From assembly GCF_001646655.1 (NCBI RefSeq), contig NZ_LPZN01000003.1, forward strand, positions 310,001 through 374,000: a stretch of 64,000 bases of DNA. The letters run 5' to 3'. The translations under genes were made by a program, and so were the position numbers. The stretch comes from Rhodococcus gordoniae. GTDB lineage: Bacteria; Actinomycetota; Actinomycetes; Mycobacteriales; Mycobacteriaceae. Below are positions 1 to 10,919 of this stretch, one piece after another. Each line of letters opens with the position of its first letter. Position 1 is the stretch's first letter. A model generated the notes under the pieces. It was not told the DNA's origin and ran no database searches. It saw only the letters and a program-made list of their open reading frames with translations.

Positions 1-556
1 CAGGACGCTCGTTGTCGGTCGAGACCGACATTGTGTGCGACATTCGAGCAGATACCGCACACCACCTCGGTCTCACCAGCTCAGGGATGTGCGCCCGCTC
101 GGTGCAACACGCGTCGCACCCTGTCGACGACGACCTGCGGTCGTCGATACAGCAGCCCATGTCCGTGCGGACCACGAACCGCCCACCGTCGTACATCTCC
201 ATCTGCGTTTCCGGCACGGGTAGACCCGGCCGGACGATCAGCAGCCGAATGTGCGTCTCCGGTGGCGACGCGGCCCTCCGTCGAGTGCAGCTTTCCGGGT
301 CGCACGATCTCCGCCGGCAACGACGGGTCGAGCCGACGGGTCCCGTGCACAGCGGCTGCGGACGGCCCGATCAACACTCCGGTTCCTCCGGCCCACAGCC
401 GAACGGCCTTCGCACGTAACAGTGCGGTCGCGTCGACGTCGGAGCCACGTACACATTGCGGTGAAGCTTCACGACGTGATGCCGAAGTTGGTACCGCGTC
501 ACCAGTCCAGTCGCCAACGCATCAGTGGCAGCGAACGGTTCGTGGAAGTCGACCAT
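1..556 (-). pseudogene. Degraded DUF559/AbiEi-like protein gene
   Basis: Reading from an ATG at 554-556, the N-terminus (MVDFHEPFAATDALATGL...) resembles actinobacterial DUF559-type proteins with an AbiEi-like N-terminal helix-turn-helix. The reading then breaks. After NVYVAP (about 440) it must change frame to continue as ALLRAKAVRLWAGGTGVL and IGPSAAAVHGTRRLD. It changes again near 285 to give PPETHIRLLIVRPGLPVP and YDGGRFVVRTDMG, the usual start of the nuclease-like half. The expected C-terminal acidic/EYDG part is not found; what follows is unlike the family, and the window starts there. At least two frameshifts and a degenerate end make this a decayed gene. Family assignment is by motif recall only. 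Confidence 0.6.
18..77. repeat. ~60-bp imperfect palindromic repeat, copy 1
   Basis: Begins GGTCGAGACCGACATTGTG and ends with CTCGGTCTCAC. It aligns over its whole length with the segments at 644-703 and 5638-5699: shared TCGAGACCG left end, central TTCGAG-like block, and ACC-GGTCTC right end. It is the most diverged copy and lies within the decayed C-terminal part of the pseudogene. Confidence 0.45.
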
Positions 557-643
557 GAGCGCGAGCGTGCCCGGTGACCGGCCTCTTCGGTACCCCGAAT
601 TCACCGCCTGTGGACAACTTCCGCGTTATCCCCGGACGCATCG

Positions 644-703
644 GATCGAGACCGGTGTGGTTGTCGATTTCGAGTGGACCATCGACAACCAGACCGGTCT
701 CGA
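644..703. repeat. ~60-bp imperfect palindromic repeat, copy 2
   Basis: The left arm CGAGACCGGTGTGGTTGTCGA and the right arm TCGACAACCAGACCGGTCTCG are inverted complements with one or two mismatches around a ~13-nt centre. A transcript would fold into a long hairpin just after the stop of the ATPase gene (711), so it may serve as that operon's terminator. The same-orientation relative at 5638-5699 lies at the other end of the operon. Confidence 0.6.
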
Positions 704-710
704 AGAACAC

Positions 711-3700
711 TCATCCTCGAGCGAGGGCAAGCACTTCCTCTTCCGTCGGAGGGCTCTTCGGGTGGAAGGTCAGACACAACGGTGTCCGGGTCTTCTGGAA
801 TTCCCTACCGTCGATCGCCGTGTAGAACTGTCCGGCGGGCAGCCGTCCTACATCCGGAACCCGACCGCCCTTCACACGGGCCATCTCCTTGGCCGCCTCG
901 ATCTGTGCGGGGCTGTTCAACAAACCGTAGAACTGAGTGGCCGCATTACCCGGGATACGGTTGTGAAGGCCCTTGGGCGCCTGGGTCGCGAAAACCAACC
1001 CCAGACCGTACTTGCGGGCCTGCGACGCCAGAGCGAGCGTGCTCTGGGTGCATGCCGTGTTCTGATCCGACGGCGCAAAGGTCTGGGCTTCGTCCATGAC
1101 GAACAATCCCCCGAGTGGCCGATCGCCGGCCGGGTTCTTCTTGATCCATGCGAACAGAGCCATCTGGAGTTGGTTGACGAATGCCTGACGTTGCGAGTCC
1201 GACGGGAGACCCGACAGATTGACTACGGAAACGCGCGCTCGACAGCCGGGGCGGGGAGTCAGCAGAACACCGGGATCGACCGGAGTTCCCTCACCCCCGA
1301 ACATAGGATCGGTGGCCATCGCCGCCTTCAGGTTCTCCGCGAGATCCGCAGCGATCTTCACCCCGTTCTTCATGCCGCTGATGTCCTCGGGAAAATCCTC
1401 CAACAAGCTCACGAACTCCGCCACGCCGCCCCGCATGCTCTGTCCGAAATACTCGAGCGCCTCCCGCAGAACGGCCTGGGAGTGTTTCGCCTTGGCAGTC
1501 CGGCCTTCCGCAAGAGCTCGCGGCACCAGCGCTGCGACCGCTGCGTCCACAGCGGCTTCGAATTCGTCCCGGTCGTCGCGCACGCTCGCGAAGTCCGGTA
1601 GTGGTTGGAAACTCAGCGGTCGTCCGGTGGAACGGCGAGGAGTCCAGACCACCACATCCGTCCGATCGAGATACTCGGCAGCCTTGCGGTCGTCACCGAC
1701 GGGCCAGCTCCGAGCCCCCTCCGGCCATGCTGTCCCCAGCCGTGCAAGATCGTTGTTCGGATCGAGGACGATCGAGGAAACACCCTGCAGCGCGCACTCT
1801 TCCACGATCCTTCTGATCAGGACGGTCTTTCCGGAACCGGATCCGGCGAAGATCGCGGTGTGTTTCCGCAATGCTTCGAGACCGACGGACACCGGACGTT
1901 CTTCTTCCACCGACATCCCGAGTGGAATCCCGGTGACGGGGTCGTCGATACCGGAGACCGCCTCGTCCTTGTCGAGCGCCGGAGTCGGCGCGGGCACAGT
2001 GTCGGGCTCATTCGGCACCGGTACCGGATCGTCGACGCCGCCGAGAGCAGCTCGGAACACAGTGACGTCGTGTGCGGGCTTCCGAGTGAGGAGCCATTCG
2101 TCGAGATGCTCCGGGTGCTCGTCGAACAGTGCTCTCAGGGCAATCAGCGTTCGGACGTCACTTTCGGGCAGTGCCAGTGTGCAACCGCCGACAGCCTCGA
2201 ATGCTGTGAGTACCTCGCGAGTCTTCGCCCCGTTCGACCACGGGCTGTTCCGAAGGACGAACAACGACCGGTGGGGCAATCCTCCGGAGATCCCCGCTGC
2301 TGTGGATGCCTTCTGAAGCCGATTGAGCGCAGCGGTTGCGTTCGTCGACCCCACAGCCCGGAAAGTCCAGTGAATCTCCGACTCGGTTCTCGGATCGAGG
2401 ATACGACGCAAGCGGGCATGCAGTGCCGGTTTCGATCCGGGCAGCGGATCCCGTTGGAAGACTCCGTCGGGGGCACCTGTCTCACGGATCCACGCATCCA
2501 ACCCTGCAGCAAGAAGGCGCGGTATCACCTCGTCTTCCGTCGCGGTCGCGAACGCCGAGTCGACTGTCGCAAGGGCTTTCGATTCTGCAAAGCGCTGATC
2601 GAGCGCGAAGTGGGCATCGACGCGCGGAGGAGCGGCATCCTTGCTCGTGTCCGGTGCTCCGCGCTGGTCGAGGATGGTCAGCTCCTCGACCGCCCCCAGC
2701 CGCACACAACGACGAAGGTGCGCATCGACCACTTGGAGCAGCTCACGCGGCGTGAAATACGGCGCCTCGGCGAGTGCTTCTTCGGTGACCGGCCAAGTGG
2801 GATAGGGCGGTTCGAAACCTGCAGCACGGTAACGAGGTAGAAAGCGCTTCGCGAGAATGGCACGTCCGATGTCCGCCGTCGGCAGCCCGTCGAGCGGAGC
2901 GCACACCCGGAACCGGTCGACCACGGTACTGATTGCGCATTCCTCGATGGTCACCCATGCACCGGGCGTACACGAGAGTACGGAGACAGTCCGGCTGAGT
3001 GTTTCGCGCAGTGCCATCAGTCCGTGCGCGATCTCCGCAATACCGGAGTCGTCGTCCAGTGCGCTTCCGTTGCCGAGCTTCGTTCGTGTAGCCGCGATCA
3101 GCGTATCGATCTGATCGACTGCGAACACGGAGGGCCCTGTCAGCGAAAGCAAGGACGAGATCTCCTGCACGATCTCCCGCGGAGAAGGCACCACAGCACC
3201 GAGACCCCATTCCGCCCGCTCACCGGGGGTCGCCTCGTCCGTCGACTGGAGATACGCTTCACCGACGTCCTGTAAGCCCATGTCCGTTGCCGCATACAGA
3301 ACGAGTGCGATCAGTGTGCGTCGGCACCGTCTGACCTCGGCCGGGTGCCGCTTCGCCAACGCCCGGACGAAGGCGTCGATACTCTCGGGGTCGACGGGCG
3401 CGCCCCCGACGAGCGCTCGCCGGTGTGCCCTCGGCACGTGCGCGATCGTGGCGAGGCGCCACAACAAGCCCTCGAGCTGGGTGCCGTGTTCGGGCGAGGG
3501 GCGCCCCAGGTTCTCCAGCATCTGGACGAGCATGGAACGCCAGAAGTCAGAGAGTTCGGTGAGACCGACGAGAAAAAAGTAGCCGTCCTCCGCTTGTACG
3601 CGCTCGCGGACGTGGCCGAGAAGGTGTGTCTTGCCCGAACCCGCCTGTCCACGGACGACGACACCGAGCGGACTCGCGCCCGAACTCCGACGGGCATCGT

Positions 3701-3863
3701 CGAAGGCTTCCCACACTGTGTCGATCGCCGAATCGTGCAGCCCACGCACGTGAAGATCGTCTTGTGGTTCCCATACGTCCTGCGGGGTGGGTGCCCAGGT
3801 CAGACGAACCGACGAGAGCGCATGGCGCTCGACGTCGGTCATCCGGTTCTCGGTCGGCGTCAT
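711..3863 (-). CDS. Large two-P-loop ATPase (AAA N-half, HerA/DUF87-type C-half)
   Basis: A protein of 1050 aa. I place the start at the ATG at 3861-3863, whose ATGA overlaps the upstream stop; longer readings only run back inside the upstream gene. The N-half has an AAA/STAND-like P-loop RGQAGSGKTH at about residues 71-80 and a Walker B-like FAVDQIDTL. The C-half has a second P-loop FAGSGSGKT near residue 670, a Walker B MDEAQTFAP near 920 and the sensor-like FATQAPKGL, the layout of HerA/FtsK-like DUF87 translocases. Such ATPases often pair with nucleases in DNA processing or phage defence. Here it is the last gene of a three-gene coupled operon with a DUF559-like protein. Its exact family is not recognised; a role in defence is inference from context. 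Confidence 0.8.
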   Translation of the reverse strand: MTPTENRMTDVERHALSSVRLTWAPTPQDVWEPQDDLHVRGLHDSAIDTVWEAFDDARRSSGASPLGVVVRGQAGSGKTHLLGHVRERVQAEDGYFFLVGLTELSDFWRSMLVQMLENLGRPSPEHGTQLEGLLWRLATIAHVPRAHRRALVGGAPVDPESIDAFVRALAKRHPAEVRRCRRTLIALVLYAATDMGLQDVGEAYLQSTDEATPGERAEWGLGAVVPSPREIVQEISSLLSLTGPSVFAVDQIDTLIAATRTKLGNGSALDDDSGIAEIAHGLMALRETLSRTVSVLSCTPGAWVTIEECAISTVVDRFRVCAPLDGLPTADIGRAILAKRFLPRYRAAGFEPPYPTWPVTEEALAEAPYFTPRELLQVVDAHLRRCVRLGAVEELTILDQRGAPDTSKDAAPPRVDAHFALDQRFAESKALATVDSAFATATEDEVIPRLLAAGLDAWIRETGAPDGVFQRDPLPGSKPALHARLRRILDPRTESEIHWTFRAVGSTNATAALNRLQKASTAAGISGGLPHRSLFVLRNSPWSNGAKTREVLTAFEAVGGCTLALPESDVRTLIALRALFDEHPEHLDEWLLTRKPAHDVTVFRAALGGVDDPVPVPNEPDTVPAPTPALDKDEAVSGIDDPVTGIPLGMSVEEERPVSVGLEALRKHTAIFAGSGSGKTVLIRRIVEECALQGVSSIVLDPNNDLARLGTAWPEGARSWPVGDDRKAAEYLDRTDVVVWTPRRSTGRPLSFQPLPDFASVRDDRDEFEAAVDAAVAALVPRALAEGRTAKAKHSQAVLREALEYFGQSMRGGVAEFVSLLEDFPEDISGMKNGVKIAADLAENLKAAMATDPMFGGEGTPVDPGVLLTPRPGCRARVSVVNLSGLPSDSQRQAFVNQLQMALFAWIKKNPAGDRPLGGLFVMDEAQTFAPSDQNTACTQSTLALASQARKYGLGLVFATQAPKGLHNRIPGNAATQFYGLLNSPAQIEAAKEMARVKGGRVPDVGRLPAGQFYTAIDGREFQKTRTPLCLTFHPKSPPTEEEVLALARG

Positions 3864-4522
3864 GGAGCCTCGATCGCGAGCGCGTGCTTGTCCTGATTGC
3901 CGATGACCACGGCTGCGGCGCGATCCCGGTCGGTGAGCATCTTCTGGTTCTCCTCGGGTACGAGATGAATGTCCGGAAGCTTGTACATACGCACGAGGGC
4001 ACGATCGATCTCGTCCTTGGCAACGTCGGCCAGCGCCGAGCGGAGATCGGCAAGACCGATCCACGCTCCGGGGCGTGCCACGTGCCGCGCGTAGGCTGCG
4101 CGAATACGGTCTTCGAGATCCGATCCCTCGGATACGCTCCGGGCCGGTTCCGGCTCGGCCGGATCCTCGGATATCTCGGCGGTGAGGAACACGTCGGCGG
4201 GACGCAGATCATGGCGGTCGAAGTGCCTGCGTAGCGATCGGAGCATCGTGTAGAGGGTGCGGGCGGCGGGGTTCGACCGCGGTGGGACGTCGGCCGCCAA
4301 TTCCTCATAGCAGCGAGCCCATCCGCCGTCGGCCAGCTCGTGCGTGAACGGCCTTGCCCGAGTGTCGGTCTCGACGAGCTTGAGACGATTCAGTTTCTTC
4401 CTGCTGTCGGCGCGCAACTCCGGTCCGAGAGCCTTCAGTTCGGTGTTGGTGACCGGACGTGACTCGGCCATGAGAGCGAGGAGCACCAGGATCTCGGAGG
4501 GGGTCAGATCATCTGCACTCAC
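3860..4522 (-). CDS. Double winged-helix-like operon protein
   Basis: A 220-aa protein starting at GTG (4520-4522) that overlaps the upstream stop as GTGA and ends in an ATGA overlap with the ATPase start, so all three genes are probably translationally coupled. Residues ~5-60 (TPSEILVLLALMAESRPVTN...) look like a MarR-type winged helix. The C-terminal ~80 residues (IGLADLRSALADV, IDRALVRMYKLPDIHLVPE) look like a second winged helix of the kind seen in phage-defence helicase operons. A linker rich in acidic residues separates them. It may load the ATPase or nuclease onto DNA or regulate the operon. No known gene name is assigned; function is inferred from fold pattern and position. Confidence 0.7.
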   Translation of the reverse strand: MSADDLTPSEILVLLALMAESRPVTNTELKALGPELRADSRKKLNRLKLVETDTRARPFTHELADGGWARCYEELAADVPPRSNPAARTLYTMLRSLRRHFDRHDLRPADVFLTAEISEDPAEPEPARSVSEGSDLEDRIRAAYARHVARPGAWIGLADLRSALADVAKDEIDRALVRMYKLPDIHLVPEENQKMLTDRDRAAAVVIGNQDKHALAIEAP

Positions 4523-5664
4523 TGGGCCAGGCCTTTCGTTGTCGTCGCGAGGAGGGTGTTCTGCTCGCGACGTCGGTCGGTCAGAAACTGTTCGATGGCG
4601 ACGAGGACCGTCGCCACGTCATCGAGGACTTGCTCGTTGGTGAACCGTAGGACGCCGAAACCGTCGAGCTGCAACTGCACATCCCGGGTGCGGTCGGCGG
4701 CGTACTTGTGGCGCAGGCGATGATCGTCACCGTCGACTTCGACGACACAGCGAGCATCCGGCCAGATCAGATCCATCCGAATCGGGGGACGGAGGGGCGA
4801 CGTTCGGTACGGCATGTTCCATCGACGGCCGGTGGCCCACTCGCACGTTTCGAGAGCCCTTTCCAGCTTCTGTTCCGCGGCGCTGCCCGGGTGGGGCCGT
4901 CCCACCGGCGCCGGGTATCGCAGGCGGGTCCGGTCGGAAAGCAGGTCGTCGGTGGTGTGCGGGGCTTCCGGTCGAGGCAGGACGATCTCGGGGAATCGAT
5001 CGATGTCGGGGATTGCCTCACCCGCTATCCAGACGGCTGCCGGGGTGTGGTCGGACAGCCACTCGCATGCCGAGGCGAGGATCCGTTGTCGGTTCGGATC
5101 GGCGTCCGTGGGGCCCACCACGAGAAGCGCTATGCCCGGACACGGGTAGCTCTCCGCAAGAATTCGCGTCAAGCCGGCCGCCCGCGTCTCCCGTGCGAAG
5201 CGACCCGCCGTCATCCGCTTCCCGAGCAACGCCGCGACGGCCAGGTCCGAAACGAACGGACCGAAATGCCTTGTAGTGGAAGATAACTTACGGGAAAGAA
5301 CGCGCACTGCCCGAATGTCGAGGGCACTGCGCCCGGTCAGGACTTCCGCGCCCGGTAGCCACGCGGGAAACAGGCCCCGTGCTGCCGCCTCCAGTTCGTC
5401 GAGAACCGAGTCGACGATCTCGCCTACCGAGTTCCCTGCGACCTGACAGGTCGAGACGACAGGAGCAGACTCGGGTCGGGTATCGAGTGCTTCCAACAAC
5501 GTCCGGGCAGCGCGGACCGACACCACTCGGTCGGTAGGCAGCATCGACCAGATGCCGCATTGCTCGGTTACCCCACCCATAAGGAGTGAATTGTACATTC
5601 CGGGCATCGGGGCTGTTCCGGCCCGGATCAGAAGCCGGGTCGAGACCGGTGTTGTCGTCGACAT
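4519..5664 (-). CDS. DUF559-type (PD-(D/E)XK-like) nuclease-like protein
   Basis: A 381-aa protein read from the ATG at 5662-5664; the longer open frame upstream runs into the divergent permease gene and is not used. The first ~260 residues are a domain I do not recognise. The last ~110 carry the DUF559/Vsr-like endonuclease pattern: an AEQKLERAL helix, then RMDLIWPDARCVVEVDGDDH (acidic D...E-D core), then DRTRDVQLQLDGFGVLRFTN and an EQVLDD end. These match the acidic active-site region and the conserved R-D/G-RF strand of the family. It is the first gene of the coupled three-gene operon. The 5' end lies inside repeat copy 3. Nuclease activity is inferred from the motif. Confidence 0.72.
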   Translation of the reverse strand: MSTTTPVSTRLLIRAGTAPMPGMYNSLLMGGVTEQCGIWSMLPTDRVVSVRAARTLLEALDTRPESAPVVSTCQVAGNSVGEIVDSVLDELEAAARGLFPAWLPGAEVLTGRSALDIRAVRVLSRKLSSTTRHFGPFVSDLAVAALLGKRMTAGRFARETRAAGLTRILAESYPCPGIALLVVGPTDADPNRQRILASACEWLSDHTPAAVWIAGEAIPDIDRFPEIVLPRPEAPHTTDDLLSDRTRLRYPAPVGRPHPGSAAEQKLERALETCEWATGRRWNMPYRTSPLRPPIRMDLIWPDARCVVEVDGDDHRLRHKYAADRTRDVQLQLDGFGVLRFTNEQVLDDVATVLVAIEQFLTDRRREQNTLLATTTKGLAQ

Positions 5665-5699
5665 GGAGCTCCGGCATCGACAACGATGTCGGCTTCGAC
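5638..5699. repeat. ~60-bp imperfect palindromic repeat, copy 3
   Basis: GGTCGAGACCGGTGTTGTCG is followed by a centre and then GGCATCGACAACGATGTCGG. It aligns in the same orientation with copy 2 at 644-703. It overlaps the start codon of the nuclease-like gene and the likely promoter region of the divergent TSUP gene, so it may also act as an operator. Confidence 0.5.
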
Positions 5700-6492
5700 G
5701 AGACGTAGACTCGCCTCGGTGACCCCGCTCGAACTCTTCCTCGTCGCCCTTGCCGGTCTCGGAGCCGGAGCGATCAACTCTCTCGTCGGCTCCGGCACCC
5801 TCATCACGTTCCCGACGCTCGTCGCGTTCGGTGTGCCGCCGGTGACCGCGACGATGTCCAACGCGATCGGTCTGGTCGCCGGGGGCGTATCGGGCACCTG
5901 GGGCTATCGGCGCGAGCTGCGTGGGCAGTGGGAGCGGTTGCGGTGGCAGATCCCGGCGTCGTTCTGCGGGGCACTGGTCGGAGCATGGCTCCTGCTCCAC
6001 CTACCGGAGAGCGTCTTCGAGACGGTCGTGCCGATCCTGCTCGTCCTGGCACTCACGCTCGTCGTGCTGCAACCGAAGATCCAGTCCTGGGTGGCTCGTA
6101 GAACGGGTGGCGACGCCGACGGCCGTCTCGGACCGATACGGATGACGCTGCTCGTCGTCGGCACCTTCGCCGTCGGTATCTACGGCGGCTACTTCACAGC
6201 AGCGCAGGGCATTCTGCTGATGGGTCTGTTCGGCGCGTTGCTGCACGATCACATCCAGCGGCAGAACGCCGCGAAGAACCTGCTCTCACTGGTCGTGAAC
6301 GTCGTGGCCGCCTGTGCGTACATCCTGGTGGCGTTCGACCGGATCGATTGGACCGTGGCCGCACTGATCGCCGTGGGCTCCTTGATCGGCGGTTACCTCG
6401 GTTCCCACTACGGTCGGCGCCTGTCGCCGGTCGCGTTGCGGATCGTCATCGTCGTCGTCGGCCTGATCGGGCTGTACCGACTGTTGTTCTGA
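5686..6492 (+). CDS. TSUP (TauE/SafE) family membrane permease
   Basis: A 268-aa integral membrane protein with about eight hydrophobic segments in two similar halves. The first starts LGAGAINSLVGSGTLITFPT, the typical TSUP motif; the second begins at about residue 145 with VGTFAVGIYGGYFTAAQGI. TSUP proteins move sulfite, sulfonates or other small anions across the cytoplasmic membrane; the substrate here cannot be read from sequence. The ATG at 5686 is used; an in-frame GTG at 5719 would remove a basic leader and is an alternative. Divergent from the nuclease operon with only ~20 bp between starts. Confidence 0.85.
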   Translation: MSASTRRRLASVTPLELFLVALAGLGAGAINSLVGSGTLITFPTLVAFGVPPVTATMSNAIGLVAGGVSGTWGYRRELRGQWERLRWQIPASFCGALVGAWLLLHLPESVFETVVPILLVLALTLVVLQPKIQSWVARRTGGDADGRLGPIRMTLLVVGTFAVGIYGGYFTAAQGILLMGLFGALLHDHIQRQNAAKNLLSLVVNVVAACAYILVAFDRIDWTVAALIAVGSLIGGYLGSHYGRRLSPVALRIVIVVVGLIGLYRLLF

Positions 6493-6642: not shown

Positions 6643-7206
6643 ATGAAGAAACAGACCAAAGGGGCCATCGCCGCAGGGGCCGGAGCCATCCTGCTCCTGG
6701 GCGGGCTGGGCAGTCTCGCGTTCTGGAACGATCAGACTGACGGTGACGCCGGTACCATCACATCCGGTCAGCTGACGCTCGGGGAGTGCGCCGGCGGCGG
6801 CACGTGGACCGATGTCGGCAATGGTGGAGCGACGATCGGCGACATTTCATCGTTCCGAATCGTCCCGGGCGACACGGTGCGCTACACCTGCGCCTCCACA
6901 CTCACCGCTCAGGGCGACAATCTGGAAGCCACACTCACCGCGAATCTGGATGGCGTCACGGGAAATACCGACTTGCGAAACGCCCTGATCACCACCATCG
7001 ACGGCGAGTACGCCGGCCAGTCGTTCACCGGTGGAGCCGACGGTGTTCAGGTCGTGGCAAACGGCGGTGCGCCTCAGGATATTTCGGTCGACATCACCAT
7101 CACGTTCGATCCGGCCACATCGGGGACGACCGGACAGAACGAGACCGTCGATCTCGGCAATCTGAGCCTGAATCTGCAGCAGAACACGAACCCCGCTCCC
7201 GCGTGA
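6643..7206 (+). CDS. Alternate-type (SipW-dependent) signal peptide protein, TasA/camelysin-like
   Basis: A 187-aa exported protein. The N-terminus MKKQTKGAIAAGAGAILLLG... ends LGSLAFWNDQTDGD, the pattern of the actinobacterial alternate signal peptide cleaved by SipW-type peptidases. The mature part is a Gly/Thr-rich, acidic, beta-type sequence with two cysteines (ECAGG, YTCAS) that could pair. It is the first gene of a five-gene operon with two matching peptidases, so it is a likely major subunit of a surface fibre or matrix, by analogy with Bacillus TasA. A strong AGGGGAG ribosome binding site precedes the ATG. Confidence 0.85.
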   Translation: MKKQTKGAIAAGAGAILLLGGLGSLAFWNDQTDGDAGTITSGQLTLGECAGGGTWTDVGNGGATIGDISSFRIVPGDTVRYTCASTLTAQGDNLEATLTANLDGVTGNTDLRNALITTIDGEYAGQSFTGGADGVQVVANGGAPQDISVDITITFDPATSGTTGQNETVDLGNLSLNLQQNTNPAPA

Positions 7207-7210
7207 GGAC

Positions 7211-7756
7211 ATGAAGCGGAGATGGGCCTGGATCGCCGCAGTCGCGTCGGTTCTGCTCGTGACCCTCTGGTCCACACAGCAGACCGGCGCACTGTGGCGC
7301 GACAGCACACAACTCAGGGGCGGCACGATCATCTCGGGGAGCCTGACCATCATGGCCCAGGGCTCCCAGGACTACACATGGACGAACTTCGGCGGTACCA
7401 ACCTGGCGCAGGGATCCGTGGTGCAACAGCCGTTGACGGTCAGCATTCGGGGTGACGCCCACGCACGTTACCGATTGCAAGCGGTACGTCAGAGCTCGAC
7501 CCGGCTGCCGATCGCGGTGACAGCGTGGATCGTCGGTTCCGCCGACGCATGCCCGACGTCATCCGGTGCAGCAGTGGCTACACCGACGTCGACGATCGGC
7601 GGTCCTTGGACGGCCTTTCCGGCTCCAGGGGAAGGACGGTCGGCCGCTCCGGGCACCACGGAGGTGTGGTGTCTCCGGGCGACCGTCGGAGCCGCGGCAG
7701 AACAAGGCAGGTCGACCACCCTTGCGCTCGAATTTCGAGTGGAGCAACAGATATGA
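7211..7756 (+). CDS. Second SipW-type signal peptide surface protein
   Basis: A 181-aa protein with leader MKRRWAWIAAVASVLLVTLW followed by STQQTGALWRDSTQ, an atypical signal peptide of the same class as its upstream neighbour. The mature part is beta-rich with two cysteines (ADACPTS, EVWCLRA). It starts 4 nt after the previous stop with GAGG as ribosome binding site, and its stop overlaps the peptidase start as ATGA. Probably a minor or anchoring subunit of the same structure; that role is inferred from position. Confidence 0.78.
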   Translation: MKRRWAWIAAVASVLLVTLWSTQQTGALWRDSTQLRGGTIISGSLTIMAQGSQDYTWTNFGGTNLAQGSVVQQPLTVSIRGDAHARYRLQAVRQSSTRLPIAVTAWIVGSADACPTSSGAAVATPTSTIGGPWTAFPAPGEGRSAAPGTTEVWCLRATVGAAAEQGRSTTLALEFRVEQQI

Positions 7757-8343
7757 CCGAATCCCGGGAAGAAGACGACCGGACAGGGCCGCTCTGGTGG
7801 ATGGGCTCGATGCTCACCTGGGCCCTGCTGTTCGCCATGCTCACCCTGCTGGCAGTCACCATCCTGATCCCGGCCGTGGCCGGCGGCGAACGCTTCACCG
7901 TGCTCACCGGATCGATGGACCCCACCTACCCACCCGGCACCCTCATCGTCGTCGAACCCGTCGAACCCGACGAACTCGCGATCGGAATGCCCGTGACGTA
8001 CCAGTTGCGTTCGGGGGATCCCACTGTGGTGACGCATCGGATCATCGCGTCCGCCCAATCCGCGAAGGGGCAACGCACGTACATCACCCAGGGCGACGCC
8101 AACACTGTGCCCGACGAGAAACCGGTTCTCTACGAACAGATTCGGGGACGCGTCTGGTATTCGATCCCCTACCTGGGCTACGTGAACAACTGGCTGACGG
8201 GGCAACAGCGTTCGTGGACCGTCGGGATCATCGCGATCGCACTGTTCGGCTACGCCACCGTGCTGTTCACCAGCGGTATCCGGGATGGCAGACGTGAGCG
8301 GGACGCAGCACGAACCGGCGGAGGCAGCGATGCGCGGCGATGA
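7753..8343 (+). CDS. SipW/ER-type signal peptidase I
   Basis: A 196-aa membrane peptidase that removes the signal peptides of the neighbouring exported proteins. It has an N-terminal transmembrane segment (about residues 21-43), the catalytic serine in LTGSMDPTYP (Ser54), and histidine (His95) in VVTHRII where bacterial LepB has a lysine; Ser-His is the archaeal/ER and SipW arrangement. The ITQGDANTVPDEKPV box is the conserved Asp-containing motif. A second transmembrane segment lies at the C-end (~160-180). The start overlaps the preceding stop (ATGA). Confidence 0.9.
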   Translation: MTESREEDDRTGPLWWMGSMLTWALLFAMLTLLAVTILIPAVAGGERFTVLTGSMDPTYPPGTLIVVEPVEPDELAIGMPVTYQLRSGDPTVVTHRIIASAQSAKGQRTYITQGDANTVPDEKPVLYEQIRGRVWYSIPYLGYVNNWLTGQQRSWTVGIIAIALFGYATVLFTSGIRDGRRERDAARTGGGSDARR

Positions 8344-8962
8344 AGTCCTCGATCACCTTCGCAAGTACCTACGAAAAGCGCCTTCATTCTTCACCGTCCG
8401 GGTGCGCGCACTACTGTCGCTCGGAACGGTCCTCGCACTCGGCGCGGTGGGAACCTTCGCCGCGTGGGCGAATTCGGCGGTAGCGACGGGGACGTTCAGC
8501 ACCGGCACGGTCGATCTGCGAGCGAACGACGTGAAGTCCTATACGTTCTCCGACCTGACCTCGTCCTCCATGATGCCGGGCGAGAGTCGAGCGGCGAGTC
8601 TGCAGGTGCAGAACACACGCTCGACGATGGACGTCACGTACACGGTGAATGTCGCGACACCCGCCGGAAGTCCGGCCCTCGCGAACAACCTGCAACTCCG
8701 GGTCTTCAGCAACGGAACCCCGGCGAACCTCACTGCCGGCGGTCTCCGCAAGGGAACATGCACGGGAACACAGATCGGACAGACGAACCTGATCGCGGGA
8801 GGCGCTGCGCCGATCGTCACTTCTGCTCGCCCCTTGGCGGCCACGACCGGTAGGGAGACACTGTGCATGGTCGTCACGTTGCCCACGTCGACGCCGCTCC
8901 CCACACAGAACCAGAGCGTGTCCGCCCTCGTGTTCACCTTCACGGCGCAGACGACGGTGTGA
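8330..8962 (+). CDS. Third SipW-type signal peptide surface protein
   Basis: A 210-aa product from the ATG at 8330, preceded by GGAGG at a good distance; an in-frame ATG at 8285 would add 15 residues but lacks as good a site. The leader is long: ~25 charged residues, then LLSLGTVLALGAVGTFAAWA, followed by NSAVATGTFSTGTVDL, close to the TasA/CalY family start. The mature part has a beta-sandwich-like pattern and two cysteines. It overlaps the peptidase gene by 14 bp. Confidence 0.8.
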   Translation: MRGDEVLDHLRKYLRKAPSFFTVRVRALLSLGTVLALGAVGTFAAWANSAVATGTFSTGTVDLRANDVKSYTFSDLTSSSMMPGESRAASLQVQNTRSTMDVTYTVNVATPAGSPALANNLQLRVFSNGTPANLTAGGLRKGTCTGTQIGQTNLIAGGAAPIVTSARPLAATTGRETLCMVVTLPTSTPLPTQNQSVSALVFTFTAQTTV

Positions 8963-8969
8963 GGCGACA

Positions 8970-10919
8970 ATGACCGAACACGCACACCAGGCACGGCCCC
9001 CACGCAGAGGGCGGGACACCCTCCTGACGATCGGTGCAGTACTCGGCAGCCTGTGCATTCTCGTCGCGGCGGTATCGGCCCTGTTCGGCCTGACGCCGTT
9101 GATCTTCCGCTCGGGTTCCATGGCACCCGCGATTCCTTCGGGCTCCCTCGCGATAGCGCACACCGTCCCCGCAGCCGACCTTCGGTCCGGTGACGTGGTG
9201 AGTGTGATCAACGATCAAGGCAGTCGCATCACCCATCGGATCGTGGAAGTCCAGTCGTTCGCCGGAAACACGGCCCTCCTCCGGCTGCAAGGAGATGCGA
9301 ATCCGGAACCCGATCCCCGCAGTTACGGAGTGAGCTCGGCCGAACGGGTGCTCTTCCATGTCGACGGCCTCGGCTACCTTGCCGCCTGGCTCCGGACCGT
9401 TCCCGGCCTCGTCGTGCTGGCGATACTCGCCGCCGCCCTCATCCGGATCGCGGTGCGTCCCGACGGATCGCCCCTCCGGAACGCCCAGGCCCCCGTGACT
9501 CCTCTGGCAGTCCTCGTCGTCGTGTCTGCGGTCGGCCTCTCACACACGCCGGGGACCGATGCGACCTTCGTCGACAACGCGACCGCGCGAAGCGGAGCGT
9601 TCGCCTCGAAGAGCGAGTACGTACCACGAATTGCAGGAACGGTCGGCTGCAACAGCAAACTCATTCTCGACCAACCCGATCCTGTCACGTTGAACTGGAC
9701 GCATCTGGGGTCGCCGTATCAATACCGGATCATTCTGCGAGATATGGACGGTCGTGTCTGGCGGACCGTCGACATCACCGACATCACCGCCGCGACGGGC
9801 GGCACCATCTCGTACGACCTGTACGGCACAGGTCTTCCTCGCCGCAGCCTCATCTGGCAGTACAACGCGGAAATACACACGATGTTGCCGGGAGGCACGG
9901 TGTCGGCAGCATGGAGGGGCCGCCTCGTCTCCCAACCCGTGTCCTTGATCAGCCACAACCAGGACCTCAACTGCAGCCCGAGCGGGGAACGTGACGGGAC
10001 CCCGGCGTATGTGGCACCCCCGGCTTCCGTCGCATGCTCCACGACCGGCACAGGAAGTGCCACCGCAGCGACATTGACGTGGCCCCACGTCGGCACGGGT
10101 GTGACTTACCAGGTCACCGTTCGCAATCCGTCGGACGGAAATTTCGCTTACGTCACCACGGTGACCACCACCCCGACGGCCGCGGGGCAACCGGTGACCG
10201 CCAGGATCGCCCGGACCAACCTCGACACCGCTCTCATCACCGCGAATACCGCTGACGCCGAGATCCGCTCGATCCAAGGAGATTCGTATTCCACAGGTTT
10301 CGTCGCGTACAGGCTCGACACGACGTCGACGACGGGCGTCACCTGCTCGGCACCAGCGACAGGAGCACGCTCACTGCCGCAATCCTCTGCTTCCACCACC
10401 ACGACGTCGACGACGTCCTCCCCGACCGCAAGTCCGGGGACATCGACCTCCCTCGGTCCGACGACCACCGAGGGGAGTCCCAGCACGTCCGGGTCACCGT
10501 CTGCACCGACAGAAACGGAAATTGTCTCCGCGCTCCGCTCACCGTCCGGCCTGTACTCCGCTCGGCTCGTCCGATCCGAGGCCGGAACGTACGCCGTCAT
10601 CACTGCTGCGACGGGCAGCGAGGAGTACCGCACCGGCGCCTCGGAGGGTGATGTACTGGCCTGGGCCGCCGAGACGGACGAGCTACGCATCACCGGAAGT
10701 TCGGGGGAATGGGTGATCAGTAGGGCTTCGGGTTCGTGGGTGAGGAGCGCGGTGGTCGATCCGCTCCCGGCTCCCCCGCCTGCTCCTGCTCCTGAACCTG
10801 CACCGACCGGCGAGCCTGCTCCTTCACCGGTCCCCGAGGAGACGCCGCCCGAACCTGCGCCGACCCCGAGCGACGATGCTCCTGTGGGCGAGCCGGCCGA
10901 CGACGGATCGGAAGGCTGA
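8970..10919 (+). CDS. SipW-type signal peptidase fused to a long surface domain
   Basis: A 649-aa protein. Residues 1-~165 are a complete SipW/ER-type signal peptidase: transmembrane segment ~17-41, catalytic Ser50 in RSGSMAPAIPSG, His89 in ITHRIVEV, the LQGDANPEPDP box and a second membrane segment ~145-165. A third hydrophobic segment (TPLAVLVVVSAVGLSHTPGT, ~180-195) then leads to ~250 residues of extracellular beta-type sequence with paired cysteines, a Ser/Thr-rich linker, a further small domain (residues ~515-590) and a Pro/Ala/Glu-rich tail. The extension resembles the surface-protein part of its substrates. Last gene of the operon; ends 10 bp from the convergent cobU gene. Confidence 0.82.
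   Translation: MTEHAHQARPPRRGRDTLLTIGAVLGSLCILVAAVSALFGLTPLIFRSGSMAPAIPSGSLAIAHTVPAADLRSGDVVSVINDQGSRITHRIVEVQSFAGNTALLRLQGDANPEPDPRSYGVSSAERVLFHVDGLGYLAAWLRTVPGLVVLAILAAALIRIAVRPDGSPLRNAQAPVTPLAVLVVVSAVGLSHTPGTDATFVDNATARSGAFASKSEYVPRIAGTVGCNSKLILDQPDPVTLNWTHLGSPYQYRIILRDMDGRVWRTVDITDITAATGGTISYDLYGTGLPRRSLIWQYNAEIHTMLPGGTVSAAWRGRLVSQPVSLISHNQDLNCSPSGERDGTPAYVAPPASVACSTTGTGSATAATLTWPHVGTGVTYQVTVRNPSDGNFAYVTTVTTTPTAAGQPVTARIARTNLDTALITANTADAEIRSIQGDSYSTGFVAYRLDTTSTTGVTCSAPATGARSLPQSSASTTTTSTTSSPTASPGTSTSLGPTTTEGSPSTSGSPSAPTETEIVSALRSPSGLYSARLVRSEAGTYAVITAATGSEEYRTGASEGDVLAWAAETDELRITGSSGEWVISRASGSWVRSAVVDPLPAPPPAPAPEPAPTGEPAPSPVPEETPPEPAPTPSDDAPVGEPADDGSEG

Follow-up and report, generated by a model that had tools for sequence, protein, structure and literature searches.

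A nuclease, winged-helix protein and ORC/HerA-type ATPase operon in Rhodococcus gordoniae as a candidate anti-invader DNA-capture system

The three-gene operon and its insertion site

We analysed a stretch of 64,000 nucleotides of Rhodococcus gordoniae (assembly GCF_001646655.1, contig NZ_LPZN01000003.1, positions 310,001 to 374,000), hereafter referred to as the window, in which three genes form an operon on the minus strand (Table 1). As read from the list of open reading frames (ORFs), the trio encodes a DUF559 nuclease, a winged helix-turn-helix (wHTH) protein and a large ATPase with an AAA+ domain of the origin recognition complex (ORC)/Cdc6 type and a HerA core. The wHTH gene overlaps its neighbours by 4 nt at both ends. 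An initial annotation, made from the sequence alone, had described the three genes as joined by stop-start overlaps, and both the ORFs and the overlaps were found to be as described. The G+C content at third codon positions of the three genes is 0.72–0.76, compared with a mean of 0.83 (standard deviation 0.05, lowest 0.74) for the other genes of the window.

The coupling recurs in relatives. These were collected by scanning named genomes for six peptide patterns taken from the window protein, which returned 80 stretches (5 of which are not relatives) with at least 74 loci and constitutes a biased sample. From the scan loci, further genome stretches and two plasmid records, 128 ATPases longer than 900 aa, including that of the window, were compared, of which 115 were left after removal of near-duplicates; ATPases called shorter than 900 aa, such as that of locus L071, were excluded. 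The genes around the relatives were called by a simple script, and their starts are approximate. Among the 114 non-redundant relatives other than the window, the wHTH gene adjoins the ATPase gene in every case and overlaps it in 98, and the nuclease gene overlaps the wHTH gene in 77 of the 84 loci with an adjacent nuclease gene. The coupling of the genes is therefore not due to chance.

Table 1. Features of the operon and its insertion site in the window.
Feature	Position	Strand	Description
Nuclease gene	4519..5664	-	381 aa read from 5664; ORF, DUF559 Pfam match 7.7e-11, AlphaFold2 pLDDT 86.2
Nuclease N-terminal domain	4954..5565	-	residues 34-237; P-loop-like alpha/beta fold without Walker A motif
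DUF559/Vsr-like PD-(D/E)XK nuclease domain	4567..4890	-	residues 259-366
wHTH protein	3860..4522	-	220 aa; two winged-helix-like segments, ~6-75 and ~138-220
ATPase gene	711..3863	-	1050 aa; ORC/Cdc6-type AAA+, restriction endonuclease-like middle and HerA core; ORF, Pfam, 24-row alignment
ORC/Cdc6-type AAA+ domain	2658..3839	-	residues 9-402; Walker A GQAGSGKT; Walker B DQ instead of DE
ATPase middle domain	2034..2573	-	residues 431-610; candidate inactive restriction endonuclease-like domain, then helical segment
HerA/DUF87 translocase core	714..1946	-	residues 640-1050; Walker A GSGSGKT; Walker B DE intact
Inserted segment	709..5638		no match in relatives aligning on both sides (BLASTN)
Left bracketing repeat	642..706		palindrome, arms 646-668/681-703, just past the ATPase stop codon
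Right bracketing repeat	5636..5701		related palindrome, located at the start of the nuclease gene and ahead of TauE; second arm 5677-5698 degenerate (4 mismatches)
Remnant of AbiEi-like/DUF559-type gene	1..577	-	ends approximate; piecewise alignment to L217 and L220

In the genus of the window, the trio is inserted at a variable site. The ATPase was found in 5 of 18 genomes, in one of them in fragments. Stretches from nine relatives were compared with the window. In L220, L217 and L219 both flanks of the insert can be aligned right up to it. Both flanks also align in L218, which has another gene in place of the remnant; in L206 and L221–L224 the alignment is confined to the TauE side. BLASTN alignments of L217 and L219 stop at position 708 and resume at 5639. 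For L220 the left alignment ends at 703 and the right one begins at 5675, and on the L220 sequence the two flanks overlap by 24 nt, which identifies an empty site; further to the left, L220 holds other genes. At the same spot L217 carries genes for a luciferase-like monooxygenase and a DUF1684 protein, between related repeats. An accessory module pairing a nuclease with a HerA-type ATPase had been proposed initially, and this is borne out by its restricted occurrence and by a site that is empty or otherwise filled in relatives.

The proposal that the trio lies inside repeats was likewise supported. A 22-nt repeat pattern, located within related palindromes of ~65 nt, has three perfect matches in the 4.82-Mb genome, each of them at an end of the trio, and 45 further matches with 1–3 mismatches; the reversed control pattern has none. 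Among the 128 loci, flanks matching above the null maximum (24) were found only in the window and in one Williamsia muralis genome (L041/L131). Palindromic repeats mark the insertion site between the AbiEi-like gene and TauE, and a palindrome is also present at the empty site in L220. A decayed gene had been noted beside the trio: at its position L220 and L217 hold an intact AbiEi-like/DUF559-type gene of 285–286 aa (AbiEi models to 3.4e-7; DUF559 at 1.7e-5 in L217), to which the window aligns in pieces, with ~133 and ~235 bases of L217 missing.

Domain composition of the three proteins

The ATPase combines three domains in one polypeptide. Pfam matches to AAA_16 (3.5e-9) and AAA_22 (2.6e-8) at the N-terminus and to DUF87 (2.6e-12) at the C-terminus agree with the N-terminal AAA-type P-loop and C-terminal HerA-like core described earlier, and the core also gave a profile match to HerA (4d2i, 1.7e-11). 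The catalytic residues of the HerA core are kept in all 24 rows of the alignment. In the AAA+ domain, Walker A is invariant (24/24), and the catalytic glutamate of Walker B (residues 250-253) is replaced by glutamine in the same 24 rows. An AlphaFold2 model of residues 1-630 had a mean predicted local distance difference test score (pLDDT) of 86.6. In this model the middle domain shows, when compared by eye with the DUF559 domain, the alpha-beta-beta-beta-alpha-beta order of a restriction endonuclease (REase) core. Column counts indicate that the catalytic D..(D/E)xK is not conserved, and the segment after the domain is made up of helices, with no clear wing. Profile searches of the Protein Data Bank gave nothing usable for the AAA part (two mei-1 matches at 0.0015–0.0016) or the middle domain (best 0.022), and a comparison of the ATPase model with viral structures returned no row at E ≤ 0.001.

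The first protein of the operon had been credited with a PD-(D/E)XK-like C-terminal motif, which corresponds to the DUF559 match. Residues E264, D298, E309, D311, H315, D324, R327 and D328 are identical in all 38 alignment rows, and from its sequence the nuclease looks active. Its true start is probably nearer 5607 than 5664, and residues 1-21 of the model have a pLDDT below 50. The modelled N-terminal domain bears a weak resemblance to a dead module of the STAND (signal transduction ATPases with numerous domains)/ORC type. A Foldseek search with the nuclease model returned no row at E ≤ 0.001; weak ABC-ATPase rows dominate, with 3hrl at 0.021.

For the wHTH protein there was no Pfam match and no PADLOC match at E ≤ 1. 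The two winged helices of the initial annotation appear, by eye, as two wHTH-like units in the consensus pattern of 42 relatives. Profile matches to calmodulin (188 sequences at E ≤ 1, best 6.3e-6, the 60 listed being nearly all calmodulin) were judged spurious, because they represent one redundant acidic EF-hand family and span a low-complexity linker.

Mean column identity decreases from the HerA core (67%, 24 rows) through the AAA+ domain (52%, 24 rows), the wHTH protein (40%, 42 rows) and the middle domain (38%, 24 rows) to the nuclease (31%, 38 rows), the row sets being different. Such a gradient would be expected if the motor stays constant while the recognition parts evolve fast.

Relatives, partner exchange and residence in the ribosomal cluster

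Relatives of the trio are scattered over Actinobacteria, Desulfobacterium, Paludisphaera and a Methylobacterium megaplasmid, and the order nuclease, wHTH protein, ATPase also holds in the last three. The gene before the wHTH gene encodes a DUF559 nuclease in 85 of the 115 ATPase loci. In 8 loci the nuclease is replaced, in 6 by a P-loop protein with weak tetratricopeptide repeat (TPR) similarity and in 2 by a DUF4365 protein. DUF4365 proteins are PD-(D/E)XK-like nucleases. The P-loop proteins (L039, L044–L047, L057) are 587–743 aa long, carry the motif G[GA]SS[TA]GKT and form one clade; those of L039, L045 and L057 have, by eye, an HTH-like N-terminus. In L180 and L181 the DUF4365 protein (assigned by Pfam in L181 and by resemblance in L180) stands with an unknown partner of 323–352 aa before the wHTH gene. 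On the ATPase tree, built with FastTree and with long branches flagged, the effector changes at least 11 times and the location at least 4 times, both figures being minima.

Several loci depart from the common layout. Tandem or second, diverged ATPase copies, some of them fragmentary, occur within a single genome in L016, G262, G241, G286 and G071. Beside the nuclease-free pair of L124 lie, on the opposite strand, a Trypco1-family gene and a gene for a 1343-aa P-loop protein. In Pseudonocardia humida (L071) the reading frame of the ATPase seems to be interrupted (395 aa called), and no nuclease gene adjoins it.

A large share of the relatives resides among ribosomal genes. Gaps of the S10-spc cluster hold 48 of the 115 ATPases, 40 in rplN-rpsQ and 8 in rpsH-rpsN, a locus being assigned to a gap when the closest ribosomal gene on at least one side was a fitting one, and in all 48 the ATPase is oriented opposite to the ribosomal genes. 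The rplN-rpsQ gap holds the main ATPase copy in 7 of 9 genomes viewed of genus g6 and in 4 of 4 of genus g30. In five genomes of the window's own genus (L187–L191), nothing of the trio was found in the rpsQ-rplN gap. A sample of the family contained matches to the ATPase in 142 of 401 genomes, weak HerA-only matches included; in a sample of the phylum, 43 of 396 genomes matched at E ≤ 0.001, and 6, including that of the window, had a full-length match. The trio is accessory in the window genome and near-core in some related genera. In several Mycobacteriales genera the S10-spc cluster is a cargo site, whose rplN-rpsQ and rpsH-rpsN gaps take up the trio as well as other variable genes (L007–L014, L041, L048, L182, L192, L195–L199 and others). 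A Tsukamurella record named 'plasmid 22' (NZ_LR134464.1, L120), which may be chromosomal, contains S10-spc ribosomal genes, and their gap is occupied by the trio together with VapB/PIN genes and a helicase.

Proposed function and its alternatives

The initial annotation regarded the module as undescribed. This has to be revised, as its domain set, in which the iREase is a candidate assignment, matches, by comparison with the text description of the class, the 'Orc/CDC6 + iREase + REase + HerA/FtsK capture' anti-invader class that PMC10853773 (Rakesh, Aravind, Krishnan 2024) predicts from genome comparison to intercept invader DNA. As described there, that class has an Orc/CDC6 AAA+ domain followed by an inactive REase (iREase) that precedes a C-terminal wHTH, an active REase from one of two families, HerA/FtsK and wHTH components, in some cases a multi-wHTH protein, and mobile neighbourhoods, and capture and translocation of invader DNA are proposed for it. 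The window ATPase has both the Orc/CDC6-family AAA+ domain and the HerA/FtsK domain (DUF87 and HerA chain matches given above). A mobile neighbourhood is evident in the window genome, and in other genera the site is stable. The AAA+, middle and HerA domains of the window share one polypeptide, where the description in PMC10853773 allows single or multiple ones. The window nuclease differs in being a DUF559 protein behind a Walker-less P-loop-like domain and in being absent or replaced in relatives, and a further difference is residence in the ribosomal cluster. The present analysis adds to the published description the variable-site insertion with palindromes, the residence in ribosomal gaps, and the constant pair with an exchangeable nuclease.

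Other known systems are less similar. The BREX-related capture (BRC) system, described in PMC12839542 with seven components, also has an ORC/Cdc6 ATPase, a wHTH protein, HerA and a nuclease, but its listed parts are PglZ, DUF6079, STAND-NTPase, DUF4007, HerA/FtsK, GNAT and TGT, against three genes in the window operon. No BREX model (PglZ, BrxC/DUF6079) was among the PADLOC matches (E ≤ 1) of the three products, the other window genes being unscanned. DndFGH, as described in PMC10853773, shares a HerA/FtsK domain, an REase and a multi-wHTH subunit in a different architecture, and among the three products PADLOC gave only a marginal match of the ATPase to DndH (0.034). The best PADLOC match of the ATPase was mad8 of MADS (1.1e-18), limited to residues 646-978 in the HerA core (model of 314 positions), and the three proteins matched none of the remaining mad models at E ≤ 1. 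MADS comprises eight genes. Stand-alone HerA systems, with nuclease or Sir2 partners such as NurA and DUF4297, likewise pair a HerA motor with an effector, but are not known to have an ORC-type AAA domain fused to HerA. Among the papers listed by our literature searches there was no experiment on the capture class and nothing closer to the trio than PMC10853773 and PMC12839542; in the survey of defence in Actinobacteria in PMC10482375, the word HerA is absent from the main text. Insertions in the ribosomal gap were not reported in any of the titles listed.

We propose with moderate confidence that the trio belongs to the Orc/CDC6-HerA class and acts against invaders by capturing their DNA, with an exchangeable effector. 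The data show that the genes are coupled, which domains they encode, that catalytic residues are conserved, that the effector can be exchanged or absent and that the trio was inserted at a variable site in this genus; how DNA is bound, in which order the steps occur, what is targeted and that the system defends the cell are inferred. The fast-evolving wHTH protein would bind invading DNA and recruit the ATPase. In its ATP-bound state the ORC/Cdc6-type AAA+ domain, which with its DQ Walker B is probably slow to hydrolyse, would act as a clamp or switch in loading the HerA ring, and the HerA core with its full catalytic set would then pump double-stranded DNA. The nuclease, docked via its Walker-less STAND/ORC-like N-terminal domain, may cut that DNA. 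The wHTH-ATPase pair would be the constant sensing and translocating unit, and the nuclease its exchangeable effector. In favour of this proposal are the domain and structure assignments, the invariant catalytic residues, the agreement with the published domain list, the gradient of column identity, the exchange of effectors, the accessory occurrence in the genus, the lower third-position G+C content and the wide taxonomic scatter.

Several results weigh against this proposal. No effector was recognised in 22 of the 115 pairs, meaning that BLAST revealed neither a DUF559 nor a P-loop partner up to two genes away, so that a diverged effector could hide there; among these 22 are a tandem second copy (L016), a locus with a split ATPase (L138) and L126. 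A search for a nuclease elsewhere took 14 genomes, two of them carriers, and the other 12, all with a nuclease-less pair, yielded no full-length copy (10 with only C-terminal DUF559 matches, 2 with none). Because the nuclease is kept, replaced or not seen among the 115 loci, with no full copy elsewhere in those 12 genomes, we regard the wHTH-ATPase pair as the constant unit. The ATPase is present in 36 of 37 genomes of genus g6, the single miss of which may be an assembly gap (its ribosomal contig ends ~2 kb past rplN), and in 15 of 16 of genus g30. Conserved syntenic presence, which the initial annotation considered adverse to its reading, is therefore found in part, outside the genus of the window. 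HerA-part identity tracks RpsC identity (Spearman 0.81, 325 non-independent pairs from 26 of the 40 rplN-rpsQ loci; other locations provide no control), which indicates vertical inheritance at rplN-rpsQ. No match was found in 50,697 phage records, and viral contigs gave four distant HerA matches (25–30% identity). Only 3 of 72,556 plasmid records matched, one of which is an 11.85-Mb record and another of which carries S10-spc ribosomal genes.

An association with defence islands, considered initially, was not supported: defence-like neighbours are few, and PADLOC matches among neighbours are scattered, as judged without control neighbourhoods. Up to 4 genes on each side of loci L002–L075 were scanned, excluding genes below 90 aa, ribosomal genes and the trio, with 221 of 234 cluster representatives (13 longer than 700 aa were dropped). 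In a first set 14 families matched, with 1–3 of 110 members each; in a second set 45 families matched, with 1 of 111 each among the 25 listed; and of 10 neighbour proteins scanned singly, 2 matched.

These results bear on a tentative alternative, chromosome maintenance or repair, in which the wHTH and ORC/HerA pair would be a resident DNA translocase of these actinobacteria and the nuclease an optional end-processing partner. HerA-NurA is such a resident translocase system in archaea. This role retains weight because of the near-fixation in g6 and g30, the few defence-like neighbours and the nuclease-free pairs, and the ribosomal-cluster residence with RpsC-correlated divergence points the same way. 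It accords poorly with the presence in a minority of genomes of the window's own genus, the empty site in a relative, the rarity of full-length matches in the phylum sample, the scatter over distant phyla and the exchange of effectors. On balance, defence is the likelier of the two functions predicted from sequence, though not by a wide margin. A possible variant, in which we have similarly limited confidence, is that in Mycobacteriales the pair has become established in the two S10-spc gaps as a resident motor for surveillance, with an exchangeable effector or none, and hence a near-core, effector-independent defence motor.

An abortive system in which the nuclease would be a suicide effector, released by the pair on sensing infection rather than restricting captured DNA, appears unlikely. 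The alternative P-loop partner with weak TPR similarity has a STAND-like design, common in abortive immunity, and the nuclease N-terminal domain weakly recalls a dead STAND/ORC module; a HerA motor would, however, be hard to explain if signalling alone were needed. A mobile-element DNA-processing module, with a TnsC/Orc-like loader, a HerA coupling motor and a nuclease for mobilisation, is very improbable, given that matching flanks were confined to the window and one W. muralis genome and that the loci are mostly chromosomal and vertical where tested (no search was directed at transposase or integrase genes near the trio).

The trio is compact and intact and occurs in many culturable actinobacteria, which makes the capture class testable with three genes. 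Its near-fixation in the ribosomal cluster, together with natural absence or exchange of the effector, bears on how a defence-like system becomes near-core and on whether the motor alone protects.

Elsewhere in the window, positions 6643-10919 hold a cluster of genes whose products look secreted and match camelysin and signal peptidase weakly, short of the Pfam cut-offs; the first of these genes was found in 2 of 17 genomes of the genus.

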